From: Novosphingobium sp.
GTDB lineage: Bacteria > Pseudomonadota > Alphaproteobacteria > Sphingomonadales > Sphingomonadaceae
Direction of reading: 5' to 3'
Assembly (NCBI GenBank): GCA_017987575.1
Contig: JAGNTK010000008.1
Location: 1 to 44,312 of the forward strand
Length of the DNA stretch: 44,312 bases
Shown here piece after piece: positions 32,208 through 44,312 of this stretch. Position 1 is the first letter of the stretch, and each line of letters begins with the position of its first letter. Under the pieces are notes generated by a model. That model was not told where the DNA came from, made no database searches, and saw nothing but the letters and a program-made list of their open reading frames with translations. The translations under genes were made by a program, and so were the position numbers.

Positions 32208-32447
32208 ATGGACCGCGACGCAACTGCCGCAAAGATTGCCGAACTGATTGCGCCCTTCAACAAGAAGAGCGTGACGATCACCGATGCCAGCACTTTTGCG
32301 GGCGATCTGGAATTTGACAGCCTGACGGTGATGGATTTCGTCGCCGAGATCGAAGACGCGTTCGACATCATCATCAGCATGAACCAGCAGGCCGAGATCG
32401 AAAACTACGGCCAGCTGATCGATGCCGTGGTGAAGCTGCAGGGCTAA
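32208..32447 (+). CDS. Acyl carrier protein of the sphingolipid locus
   Basis: A 79-residue acyl carrier protein. The 4'-phosphopantetheine attachment site is S38 in EFDSLTVMDF, followed by the acidic helix EIEDAFDI. GGAG is 7 bases before ATG 32208; the frame is open upstream but unconserved. It is directly upstream of serine palmitoyltransferase, the arrangement in Sphingomonas and Caulobacter, where a dedicated ACP supplies the acyl chain for 3-ketosphinganine synthesis. A strong hairpin lies between the two genes. Confidence 0.93.
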   Translation: MDRDATAAKIAELIAPFNKKSVTITDASTFAGDLEFDSLTVMDFVAEIEDAFDIIISMNQQAEIENYGQLIDAVVKLQG

Positions 32448-32463
32448 ACAAAAATCCGCCTAC

Positions 32464-32535
32464 CCTGAGCTTGTCGAAGGGCTGCCCTTTCTTCGCCAAC
32501 GCCGCAAAGAAGGACAGTCCTTCGACAAGCTAAGG
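32464..32535. repeat. REP-like long inverted repeat between acp and spt
   Basis: The two arms (32464-32493 and 32507-32535) pair over about 29 bases with few mismatches. Each contains the core GCTTGTCGAAGG / CCTTCGACAAGC, a palindromic sequence widely repeated in sphingomonad genomes and here present as an inverted pair. It fills most of the 109 bases between acp and spt. It may stabilise the acp transcript or partly terminate it, so that acp and spt are made in different amounts. Confidence 0.8.
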
Positions 32536-32556
32536 ACGGACGGGTAAGGGAATGAC

Positions 32557-40444: not shown

Positions 40445-41077
40445 TTAAACCCCAATCCCCGCCCCGCCCTGCGCGGCCTTGGCCCGCTGGAAACCAGCGC
40501 GCTGGGTCAGCCGCTCAAAATAGGCCTTCATCCCCGGCGTGACTTGCTCGTCCAGCCCGATCGATTGCGCCAGCATCACTGCATAGCCGACCGAAATATC
40601 GGCCATGGTAAAGCGGCCCGCTGCCGCGAATTCGCCATGCAACATGCTCTCGGCGTTCTTCAGGCGTGAGCCGAACCACAGCGCGTAATCTTCTGCCGCC
40701 TGCGCCACTCGCCGCTCGGGCGGCTCCAGCCGGGTGTATCGTAAATGGATCGTCTGCGGGAACGTCAGGGTCGCCTCGCCCATATGGAGGAAGTTGAGGT
40801 AGCGGGCATAGTCCGGCTCGTCCGCCGCCACTGCCAGCTCGCTCGGCCCGAACCGGGTCGCCAGGAAATGCGGGATCGCGCTGCTTTCGGTCATCAGCGC
40901 GCCATCGACCAGCAGCGCCGGGACGGTGCCGAGCGGGTTTATATCGCGGTATCCTTCAAACCGGAACCGCGGCGGGAACGGCATCAAGGTCAGCTCGTAA
41001 TCAAGCCCCAGCTCTTCCAAAGCCCACAAGGCACGGAACGAGCGCGCATCGGCGCAGTGGTAAAGGTGGAGGCTCAC
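40445..41077 (-). CDS. Glutathione S-transferase family protein
   Basis: A 210-residue GST with an N-terminal thioredoxin-like domain (LYHCADARSFRALWALEELG, the GSH-binding LMTESSAIPHFLA) and an all-alpha C-terminal domain containing FTMADISVGYAV, the conserved Asp of the family's N-capping box. The substrate is unknown. The start is GTG 41077, overlapping the TGA of the YqaA gene as GTGA, so translation is coupled; the longer frame to 41107 lies within the YqaA coding end. Confidence 0.92.
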   Translation of the reverse strand: MSLHLYHCADARSFRALWALEELGLDYELTLMPFPPRFRFEGYRDINPLGTVPALLVDGALMTESSAIPHFLATRFGPSELAVAADEPDYARYLNFLHMGEATLTFPQTIHLRYTRLEPPERRVAQAAEDYALWFGSRLKNAESMLHGEFAAAGRFTMADISVGYAVMLAQSIGLDEQVTPGMKAYFERLTQRAGFQRAKAAQGGAGIGV

Positions 41078-41712
41078 AGTGCGGCCACTTGTGCTGCCTG
41101 CGCACACTTCGCGCTGGCCTCATCCGACCCGCCGGTCAGCATCGTCGCTGCGATGAACCCGCCGACCACCAGCACCACGAAACCGGCCGTGGCGATGCCG
41201 AGATACTTGTCGATGAAGGCCTTGATCGGCGCGCCGAACATCCGGAACAGCACGCCGACGATCATGAAGCTGATCGAACGGCTGATGATCGAGGCGCCGA
41301 TGAACACCAGCAGCGGCATGGCGATGAACCCGGCGGTTATCGTCAGCAGCTTGAACGGGATCGGGGTGGCGCCCTTGATCATGATGATCTCGGCCCCGTA
41401 TTCGCGCAGATAGCAGGCCGCCTTGGGGAAACTCTCGGTCAGGCCTAGCGCCGCGAGCAACTGGGTACCGAGGCTTTCATAGAGGAAATAGCCGATCCCA
41501 TAGCCGAGCAGCCCGCCCAGCACCGAAGCAAAGGTCGCGATCATCGCAAAGCGGATCGCCTTCTTGGGCTCGGCCAGACACATGATCCCCAGCAAGGGAT
41601 GCGGCGGGATCGGGAAAAAGCTCGCCTCGACAAAGGCAAAGGCCGCCAGCCACCATTCTGCGTGCGGGTGGACAGCCTTGGCCATGGTCCAGTCATAAAG
41701 GCGGCGGAGCAT
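41074..41712 (-). CDS. YqaA/DedA family (VTT domain) membrane protein
   Basis: A 212-residue inner-membrane protein. The VTT-domain features are FAFVEASFFPIPPHPLLGIM, the glycine-rich GGLLGYGIGYFLYESLG, and the re-entrant-loop region KGATPIPFKLLTITAGF, followed by two more hydrophobic segments. DedA-like proteins take part in lipid scrambling and envelope homeostasis. It is the first gene of a two-gene unit with the GST. It is divergent from the GTA remnant, with 222 bases between. Confidence 0.9.
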   Translation of the reverse strand: MLRRLYDWTMAKAVHPHAEWWLAAFAFVEASFFPIPPHPLLGIMCLAEPKKAIRFAMIATFASVLGGLLGYGIGYFLYESLGTQLLAALGLTESFPKAACYLREYGAEIIMIKGATPIPFKLLTITAGFIAMPLLVFIGASIISRSISFMIVGVLFRMFGAPIKAFIDKYLGIATAGFVVLVVGGFIAATMLTGGSDEASAKCAQAAQVAAL

Positions 41713-41847: not shown

Positions 41848-41934
41848 TACGGAACATCGCGATAAACCGATTCGGGGCAGCACGGCTCTGAGGGCGGTTT
41901 TCGGAGATCCCCATTCACAGTCCGGATCAACTGC

Positions 41935-42435
41935 ATGGCCGACACGCCCAAGTCGCGCCGGAACGCTGCTGCGGTTCCGGCCAAGAAAGTGCCCTTTGCC
42001 AAATGGTCGAAGCTGTTCCTCGGTGAACTGGCGGCCACTTCCAACGTCACTGCCGCCGCGCACAAAGCCGGCATCAACAAAACCGCCGCCTATGACGCGC
42101 GCCGCGCCAATCCCGAATTCAACCGGGCTTGGCAACGCGCGCTGTGCGAAGGCTACGACCACCTTGAAATGGAGCTGCTGCGGCGGCTGCGCGATGGCGA
42201 GATCAAGCCTGCCGCCGGGGCCAAGAAAGGCACCCGTACCTTTGACAATGCTACCGCGCTGCGCCTGCTCGCCGCGCACCGGGATTCTGCGGCACGCCAG
42301 CGGGCGATTTCTTCGAACGAGGATTCCGAAGCGATCATCCAGTCGATCAACGCCAAGCTGGAAGTGATCCGCCAACGCCGTCTGGCCGCTCCCGCTGCAG
42401 AACAGGTCATCGATGTCGAACCACGAACTGCTTGA
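41935..42435 (+). CDS. GTA gene 1-like protein (putative small terminase)
   Basis: A 166-residue basic protein. The helix-turn-helix region at about 29-60 (LGELAATSNVTAAAHKAGIN, then TAAYDARRANPEFNRAW) is the phage small-terminase / GTA g1 DNA-recognition pattern. In GTAs it works with the large terminase in packaging of cell DNA. The gene looks intact. Its end overlaps the large terminase start by 23 bases, the normal g1-g2 arrangement. Because the packaging motor after it is broken, it has probably lost its partner. Confidence 0.82.
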   Translation: MADTPKSRRNAAAVPAKKVPFAKWSKLFLGELAATSNVTAAAHKAGINKTAAYDARRANPEFNRAWQRALCEGYDHLEMELLRRLRDGEIKPAAGAKKGTRTFDNATALRLLAAHRDSAARQRAISSNEDSEAIIQSINAKLEVIRQRRLAAPAAEQVIDVEPRTA

Positions 42436-42904
42436 TGCGCTGGTCGATCTGCCAGAACCGGAACGGCTCGCCGCGATCCGCACTCTGACCGAGGAGGAGC
42501 GCAAGGAATTCCGCCATCACTGGCAGCTGTGGGGCCGCACCCGGCAATTACCTCCCGAAGGTGACTGGACCACCTGGTTGATTCTGGCCGGGCGCGGTTT
42601 CGGCAAGACCCGCGCCGGGGCCGAATGGGTCCGCACCACGGCGCAAGGCCATCCCGAAGCCCGGATCGCGCTGGTCGGGGCATCGTTGGGTGAGGTTCGC
42701 GCGGTGATGGTTGAGGGCGAAAGCGGGATCCTCGCGGTCTGCCCGCCGGGCCAGATCCCGAGCTTTGAACCGTCGCTGCGGCGGCTGACCTGGGGCAACG
42801 GTGCGCAAGCCACGCTTTACTCTGCTGGCGAGCCGGAGAGTTTGCGCGGGCCGCAGCATAGCCACGCTTGCCGGCCAAACCCAAAAAGAAAGCTTTGTCA
42901 ATGA
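42413..42904 (+). pseudogene. GTA large terminase (g2), 5' fragment
   Basis: The first ~152 codons of a GTA/phage-type DNA-packaging ATPase. The Walker A motif GRGFGKT with K65 is intact, followed by ARIALVGASLGEVRAVMVEG and SAGEPESLRGPQHSHA. At about 42868, where intact proteins continue into the acidic Walker B region, the similarity stops. The frame then reads through 12 unrelated codons (CRPNPKRKLCQ) to a TGA at 42902-42904. A full protein would be over 400 residues, so Walker B and the nuclease domain are missing. What follows is a DUF2793 gene body in another frame. Confidence 0.85.
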
Positions 42905-43268
42905 ATTGGCCGCTCGGGTTGATGCCCTGCTGCACTTGGCAATCGAAGCAGAACTGGCAACGCCACCCAGCGCTCCAACCGATGGACAAGCTTGGCTGGT
43001 TGCCCCCAGCCCAAGCGGCGACTGGGCCGGCCAAGCCGGCCTGATTGCAGCGCGTACAGCAGGTAACTGGCTATTCTTCGCACCTATCGCGGGGATGACC
43101 TTGCTCAACAAGGCAACTGGCCAGCAACTGCGCTTCGTTACGGCCTGGCAAAGTCCTGCGAAGCCAACCTTGCCTGCCGGGGGCAGCACGATCGATACCG
43201 AAGCACGCAGCACAATCAGCGCAATCGTTGCGGCCATGGTTGTCGCCGGAATCGTACCAGCCAACTGA
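42867..43268 (+). pseudogene. DUF2793 protein, 3' part, fused to the terminase fragment
   Basis: From LAGQTQKESFVNELAARVDA through DGQAWLVAPSPSGDWAGQAG and NWLFFAPIAGMTLL this is the DUF2793 family, usually encoded at the downstream end of sphingomonad GTA clusters. Only the first dozen or so residues, with the start codon, are missing. The frame is +1 relative to the terminase fragment, so the two are not one protein. The remainder (to TGA 43266-43268) is intact and includes a C-terminal hydrophobic stretch (TISAIVAAMVVAGIVPAN). Confidence 0.82.
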
Positions 43269-43458: not shown

Positions 43459-44312
43459 ATGCGCAAACTCGTCATTGGGATGGCGCTGGCCTCTACGGCT
43501 CTCGCAACGCCGGCTTTGGCCCGCGACGATTCCTGGTATATCGAAGGTGATGTCGGCGGCGTTCTCGTCGAAGACATGGAAAACCTTGCTGGTCCAGGCG
43601 TCGGCACGCTCAACACCAAGATCGGCTATGATGCCGGTATCGCTGTTGGCTATGACTTCGGTGGTTTCCGCCTCGAAGCGGAAACCAGCTATCGCCGCGC
43701 CAGCGCCGATGGTTACACCGTAGGATCGACGGTCTATTCGGGTGCGAACCTGGACGGTCATGCCAGCGCGCTGAGCTTCATGCTCAACGGCTTGCTGGAC
43801 TTCGGCGACGATGATGGTCTTCAAGGCTTCGTCGGCGGCGGTGCAGGGATCGGCCGCGTGAATGTTGTTGCTGATGTTCCCGGCACCGGCTCTGACATCA
43901 ACGATTCGGACTCGGGCTTCGCTTGGCAGGCTCTGGCCGGCATCCGTATGCCGGTGACTGATAATGTCGACGTCGGCCTGAAGTATCGCTTCTACAATCA
44001 GGACAACGTAAACCTGGTTGGCACTGGCGGTCAGAATGGTCCGGCTCTGCGTGAAGGGGACACCCGCTTCCGTTCGCACTCGCTGATGCTGACGCTGGGC
44101 TACAACTTCGGTGGCGAAGAAGCGGCTCCGCCGCCTCCGCCTCCTCCGCCCCCGCCGCCTCCTCCGCCTCCTCCGCCCCCTCCTCCTCCTCCGCCGCCTG
44201 CGCCGGTGTGTGAGAAGGGTCCGTACATCGTGTTCTTCGACTGGGATAAGTCGGACATCACGCCGGAAGCCGCTTCGATCCTGGATTCGGCCGCTGCTGC
44301 CTATGGCAACTG
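43459..44312 (+). CDS. OmpA family outer membrane protein (3' end outside window)
   Basis: 284 residues are visible. A signal peptide (MRKLVIGMALASTALATPALA, cut after residue 21) leads into an eight-strand beta-barrel-like domain with alternating aromatic strands (WYIEGDVGGVL, GYDFGGFRLEAETSY, GFVGGGAGIGRV, DVGLKYRFYNQ, LMLTLGYNFGG). Then comes a run of 24 prolines and the start of the periplasmic peptidoglycan-binding OmpA domain (PYIVFFDWDKSDITPEAASIL). AGGGG lies 9 bases before ATG 43459. Codon use is biased (GGT, GCT, CCT), as in highly expressed genes. The 190 bases upstream hold its promoter but no clear box was found. Confidence 0.95.
   Translation, partial: MRKLVIGMALASTALATPALARDDSWYIEGDVGGVLVEDMENLAGPGVGTLNTKIGYDAGIAVGYDFGGFRLEAETSYRRASADGYTVGSTVYSGANLDGHASALSFMLNGLLDFGDDDGLQGFVGGGAGIGRVNVVADVPGTGSDINDSDSGFAWQALAGIRMPVTDNVDVGLKYRFYNQDNVNLVGTGGQNGPALREGDTRFRSHSLMLTLGYNFGGEEAAPPPPPPPPPPPPPPPPPPPPPPPPAPVCEKGPYIVFFDWDKSDITPEAASILDSAAAAYGN
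44128..44199 (+). repeat. Polyproline-coding CCN tract
   Basis: 24 consecutive proline codons (a mix of CCG, CCT and CCC), followed by Ala-Pro. It forms the hinge between barrel and peptidoglycan-binding domain of the OmpA protein. Such a tract needs elongation factor P for translation and may vary in length between strains. Confidence 0.95.

Follow-up and report, generated by a model that had tools for sequence, protein, structure and literature searches.

A gene transfer agent deletion with one fixed seam in at least 51 Sphingomonadaceae genomes

Gene transfer agents (GTAs) persist although nonproducers should win, an open question that is touched by a locus in the window analyzed here, a stretch of 44,312 nucleotides from a Novosphingobium sp. 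At this locus, a fragment of the large terminase gene adjoins a DUF2793 gene directly and the complete head-tail gene set is absent. Is this join the private accident of one genome, or a state shared with its relatives? The locus resembles the RcGTA-like GTAs of Alphaproteobacteria, which likewise have terminase and DUF2793 (tail fiber) genes in a cluster of about 13 kb. The accessible part of one paper (PMC10883770) names DUF2793 as the tail fiber and discusses pseudogenized and lost GTA clusters as possible cheater lineages, but describes no fixed seam or recurring particular deletion of the kind reported here. Two further papers give a survey of GTA conservation (PMC9836097) and two Citromicrobium genomes with complete GTA clusters (PMC3338782). 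A literature search of limited scope returned no report of a fixed GTA deletion, and a search on trans-species polymorphism gave nothing on GTAs among the papers listed.

The locus lies between dedA and ompA genes, the position that the GTA occupies in intact relatives (Table 1). A dedA piece was recovered in 81 of 86 Novosphingobium loci, and alignment identifies dedA as the upstream flank common to the window and intact GTA clusters; ompA, found in the same place in relatives, reads as their downstream flank. The gene labeled g1, a name given from its position beside g2 alone, is 88% identical in amino acids to g1 of the nearest relative and had no match in a Pfam search. The initial annotation had described a collapsed GTA locus whose terminase, with Walker A kept, breaks off and is followed by DUF2793 in another frame and by an OmpA gene, and the comparisons bear this out. 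The PF03237 match (E 4.8e-8) covers residues 56 to 151 of the terminase fragment, which keeps Walker A (GRGFGKT, spotted by eye) and ends in SLRGPQHSHA at 42868, cut just before WCDE. Past that point the terminase frame adds 11 unrelated residues and stops at 42902-42904, and the DUF2793 body is read in the +1 frame relative to the terminase.

Table 1. Features of the GTA locus in the window
Feature	Position	Strand	Basis
dedA-like membrane protein gene	41074..41712	-	tblastn; same place in most Novosphingobium loci
g1, putative small terminase, 166 aa, frame open	41935..42435	+	ORF
Large terminase g2, N-terminal 152 residues	42413..42868	+	PF03237
Seam, terminase GC joined to DUF2793-type TTG	42866..42870	+	Comparison of 51 seams
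DUF2793 tail fiber gene body, start missing	42869..43268	+	PF10983, E 1.9e-21
ompA-like outer membrane protein gene, runs off window	43459..44312	+	PF13505, E 3.4e-13

Intact relatives give the size of the loss. Of 99 sampled Novosphingobium genomes, 85 gave a match to the join region, counting that of the window, and the 84 other loci were fetched. Full-length clusters were present at 46 of the 85 loci, the window's join at 15 (carriers), and other shortened forms at 6 (L097, L121, L131, L132, L135, and L136). Among the 18 unclassed loci, the contig or the fetched stretch ended in 17 and no DUF2793 occurred within 15.7 kb in L100; all 18 retain terminase sequence past the seam. The dedA and ompA flanks were alike across Novosphingobium loci wherever they were within reach. 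In the 46 full-length clusters, terminase and DUF2793 lie near opposite ends, as the initial annotation had stated, and 12,569 to 13,338 bases (median, 12,744) separate the two join points. By this comparison, about 12.7 kb is gone from the window, from the second third of the large terminase through the start of DUF2793, portal included, and the known gene order places the capsid and tail genes in the lost stretch as well. With the head-tail stretch deleted, no particle can be made, and the allele is therefore GTA null. Two arrangements that the initial annotation had named as speaking against a deletion, a short terminase with DUF2793 a cluster length away and DUF2793 adjoining g2 in full clusters, were sought among the 85 Novosphingobium loci, and neither was found. 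One of the other shortened forms, L121, differs from L112 by a separate GTA deletion, about 8 kb long, with an end overlap of about 25 bases, like an ordinary repeat-mediated deletion.

The nearest relative found, L017, supplies the close comparison that had been proposed. It is 87% identical in DNA to the window over 41906-42870, has the same dedA and GST genes upstream, shares 97% amino acid identity over the g2 fragment, and encodes a full terminase of 442 aa followed by the portal gene. An extra 182-aa frame lies between its large terminase and portal genes (L017 3762-4310). A contig from the same bin, L153, encodes DUF2793 and OmpA with 59% and 67% amino acid identity to those of the window, while the rest of that genome is 81 to 91% identical to the window over longer matches in 28-41 kb. 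L153 may be misbinned, or it may reflect replacement of a right flank, and it was left out as the right flank of the window's sister.

In a portal search with a query from an intact relative, strong matches were returned from the controls, three intact genomes and the genome of L017. The genome of the window (82.6% complete) yielded no GTA portal, 11 of the first 15 carriers had no match, and the other 4 had only weak, distant matches (E 2e-18 to 1e-4). An intact GTA elsewhere in the first 15 carriers was set aside on this basis.

The join extends beyond Novosphingobium. The search query was A1, an alignment of 14 junction-spanning frames from which L061 was omitted because of its stop. Matches occurred in 164 of 195 Novosphingobium genomes, and in at least 23 of the 195 they begin at columns 1 to 3; all 23 were confirmed by sequence. 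In a search of 397 family genomes, 29 matches listed outside Novosphingobium begin at columns 1 to 5, and 28 of these, from 14 further genera, were confirmed by sequence. Both counts, 23 of 195 and 28 of 397, come from the matches listed and are minimum values. Two loci checked by sequence, L264 (G474) and the borderline L192 (G188), do not have the window's join. In sum, at least 51 genomes from 15 genera, window included, share this join and its nucleotide register. In a class-wide sample of 289 genomes, 40 genomes outside the family matched, none starting before column 13. No match among 50,697 phage records and 72,556 plasmid records reached the seam, and a mobile template for the join was dropped from consideration for that reason.

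These counts bear on two simple accounts. The window is one contig of a fragmented assembly (223 contigs, 2.49 Mb, 82.6% complete), where a false join might be suspected; 50 other genomes have the same seam, some in a single contig (e.g., G094, G330, G480, and G522), which excludes assembly artifact as a general explanation and makes it scarcely credible for the window. Ordinary random gene loss should not produce one join between the same two genes in at least 50 relatives. The single internal deletion suggested by the initial annotation stands as a description of the roughly 12.7 kb separating the window from its relatives, but not as a private accident, given 51 genomes in 15 genera.

With position 0 set at the base that follows the terminase Ala codon, the sequence is of terminase type to -2 and of DUF2793 type from +1 in nearly all 51 seams. 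Bases -1/0 are terminase-like in 15 seams (CT in 12, GT in 3) and DUF2793-like in 36 (TC in 22, TT in 10, AC in 3, AT in 1), the window having the DUF2793-type TT at 42868-42869. Neither CC nor GC occurred among the 51 seams, and each seam takes its two central bases together from a single parent gene, either terminase or DUF2793. This places the two common seam positions 2 bases apart. A third position is seen in L191, in which base -2 is also of DUF2793 type. The register is identical in 50 of 51 loci, with one extra base in L253.

The parent sites offer no obvious reason for this precision. Across 46 intact loci, identity between the two sites in the joining register was 25.5%, inside the 16 to 36% of neighboring registers, and no direct repeat or shared core was found; the central bases differ (terminase C/G/A-T versus DUF2793 T/A-T/C). 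Direct-repeat deletion was rejected because identity in register is no higher than in neighboring registers, and with neither repeat nor core at the sites, no known recombination route accounts for the fixed register.

Bases beside the seam read as native bases of the two parent genes. Genus-typical DUF2793 letters recur in carriers of the same genus, x-A-Q in genera g2 and g37 and often P-G-Q in genus g48, while the g15 carrier L211 reads A-G-Q where three of four intact g15 loci have x-A-Q. Two letter biases distinguish carriers from intact DUF2793 genes: T over A at -1 (32:4 versus 37:28; p 8e-4) and G at +1 (44 of 51 versus 43 of 66; p 0.011). The T excess at first seemed to be a mark of common ancestry. 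Its weight was then reduced, since the terminase letter often stands at -1 in carriers with T at 0, and since T is also present at -1 in the intact relatives read from genera g62, g66, g70, and g80.

Carriers are interspersed with intact relatives. In quick trees of the first 15 carriers, the number of state changes was 11 for dedA, 14 for the terminase N terminus (termN), 12 for DUF2793, and 12 for ompA, the last covering 14 of the 15. A dedA tree of 88 rows with 23 carriers required 19 changes, compared with an average of 20.7 in 500 label shuffles, and a single carrier clade was rejected (AU p 2e-67). A further tree used rpoB, which was found in 25 of 30 genomes but not in the window's or that of L017; G052 was omitted because it had only a short fragment. 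The resulting tree of 24 genomes, chosen to include intact relatives of carriers, held 14 carriers and required 10 changes, at least 9 of them forced by starred branches; here, too, a single carrier clade was rejected (AU p 1.5e-45). Carrier and intact genomes are sisters on rpoB in L067/L062, L108/L116, L140/L141, and L101/L134, and the window pairs with the intact L017 on dedA and termN. Sister carriers also occur (L061/L063 on rpoB and L101/L187 on termN), compatible with inheritance. On these trees, carriers are for the most part scattered tips, not clades. Carrier G004 (L077) pairs with G079 (L097), which has another deletion. L097 is the nearest rpoB relative of L077 among the 24, with a left flank about 96% identical, and its deletion joins the portal gene to DUF2793.

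If one allele had spread recently from a donor, carriers should resemble each other beside the seam. In Novosphingobium, mean identity over left positions 2 to 32 was 0.808 between carriers, 0.802 between carriers and intact loci, and 0.802 between intact loci; over right positions 4 to 34, the values were 0.703, 0.706, and 0.708. Over +4 to +34 in the all-genera set, the sequence closest to a carrier was another carrier in 0.54 of cases versus 0.44 after shuffling (p 0.077), the strongest lean seen. No significant carrier haplotype was thus found within 30 bases beside the seam, and a recently spread donor allele was rejected. One carrier-intact pair, L191 and L106 (termN dS 0.03), was compared over 300 bases on each side of the seam; identity per 100 bases is 97 to 100% on the left and 94 to 98% on the right. 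The pair is free of mismatches for about 90 bases on the left and 57 on the right, excluding the two bases before position 0.

Old, untouched relics would be expected to carry many stops. In the 120 codons to each side of the seam, stops occurred in only 3 of 51 loci, on the terminase side in L255 and on the DUF2793 side in L061 and L253; the seam is therefore young in nearly every carrier, or its flanks have been refreshed. Some carriers are older, as L255 lacks g1 and the HSHA residues are altered in L258 and L061. The view in the initial annotation that the relic may be recent agrees with the near-absence of stops, but would require recency in nearly every carrier at once, which implies recurrence or continual refreshing, not a single accident. 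Among termN pairs above 78% amino acid identity with dS of 0.1 to 1.2, which are not independent of one another, median dN/dS was 0.141 between carriers (25 pairs), 0.168 between carriers and intact loci (136 pairs), and 0.179 between intact loci (251 pairs). Four pairs with carriers had raised values: L061/L063 (0.45), L114/L139 (0.41), L108/L116 (0.32), and L076/L083 (0.27). From -900 to +525, L061 and L063 are about 90% identical in dedA and ompA and only about 70% across g1, the terminase fragment, and DUF2793, a drop that reflects either relaxed selection or replacement.

Our conclusion is that fixed-seam GTA-null alleles keep turning up at the strain level in Sphingomonadaceae. Repeated deletion at fixed positions, to which we give a probability of roughly one half, is favored over a single old allele whose flanks recombination has refreshed. 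A break-and-join would recur at a fixed terminase point, the codon for the A of HSHA, and at a partner point just before the A-G-Q of DUF2793; the spacing of two bases between seam positions would suit ends with a 2-bp stagger, and a putative agent would fix both points. Repeated formation accounts for the native flanks, the native seam letters, the scatter of carriers, and their youth. It fits less well with the biases at -1 and +1 and the A-G-Q of L211, which lean toward common ancestry, and the third position in L191 would need a later mutation under a fixed cut with a 2-bp stagger. The allele would be a strain-level state of nonproducers, possibly still receiving DNA from producers. In its boldest form, GTA loss would be a switch, in which a dedicated site-specific break-and-join with a 2-bp stagger excises the head-tail module between the fixed points and turns producers into nonproducers at a high, heritable rate; we regard this form as speculative and doubtful.

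The foremost alternative, possible though on balance rather unlikely, is that the deletion arose once and has been kept or passed around as a nonproducer allele while recombination with intact strains replaced both flanks up to the seam. Fragments delivered by GTAs, for instance, could overwrite the flanks yet could not return 13 kb; replaced flanks would look native and the frames would escape decay. Such a history gives the fixed register without a special enzyme, lets seam letters shift by 1 or 2 bases where neighboring letters match, and accommodates both the letter biases and the intact frames. The locus does recombine between species: the intact clusters L082 and L094 are 94 to 98% identical from -1000 to +2500 (g1 on) and 86 to 96% on to +6500, compared with 82 to 83% upstream in dedA and 72 to 79% near DUF2793, which looks like a recent interspecies transfer of part of the cluster. 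Weighing against refreshed flanks, the carrier haplotype is not significant even in the 30 bases beside the seam, and no clearly foreign seam letter was present in genera with intact loci read. Indels at the seam would be expected over family-level time, yet 50 of 51 loci keep the register, and for the allele to spread recently over 15 genera, recombination would have to work at about 70% identity.

Selection for the short locus itself, with the truncated terminase or the out-of-frame DUF2793 as a useful protein that fixes the join, appears improbable. Both frames are open in most carriers, but among the first 15 the terminase frame continues for 9 to 558 bases past the seam and the DUF2793 frame opens 59 to 287 bases before it, so there is no conserved fused product; moreover, carriers are mostly scattered tips rather than clades, and some relics lose g1 (L255) or gain stops (L255, L061, and L253). 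Ordinary deletions arising independently, of the kind that any decaying prophage-like cluster undergoes, are very improbable: the other shortened clusters (6 of 85 Novosphingobium loci) and the ends of L121, which share about 25 bases, show that such events happen, but random ends cannot yield 51 seams in one register without a repeat.

Known processes match in part. Like deletions between short direct repeats, the event is large and clean and leaves two gene fragments, but the window's seam lacks a repeat, where L121 has one of about 25 bases. Site-specific excision, as at prophage att sites or in developmental excision elements, makes an exact, repeated join of two fixed points. The 51 seams in one register, the scattered carriers, and the seam positions two bases apart would resemble it if the events were independent, though L191 has a shifted seam; unlike such systems, the sites here have no shared core, and the join destroys rather than restores a gene.

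Both the repeated-deletion and the refreshed-flank readings would have producer and nonproducer strains coexist within species, a prediction that goes beyond a sample of one genome per species. A nonproducer allele marked by one short junction would make it possible to count producer and nonproducer frequencies, in metagenomes as in strain collections, with one PCR or one read pattern. Formation of the junction de novo, if it happens, would also point to a precise deletion process so far unknown in bacteria.

Elsewhere in the window, for which Rfam returned no family at gathering score, a dispersed element of about 100 bases lies at 32443-32553. It contains a 26-nt inverted repeat (arms at 32464-32489 and 32510-32535, 88% complementary, with 20 nt between them). 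The related genome G099 has dozens of matches to the element, on both strands, and G089 has several.
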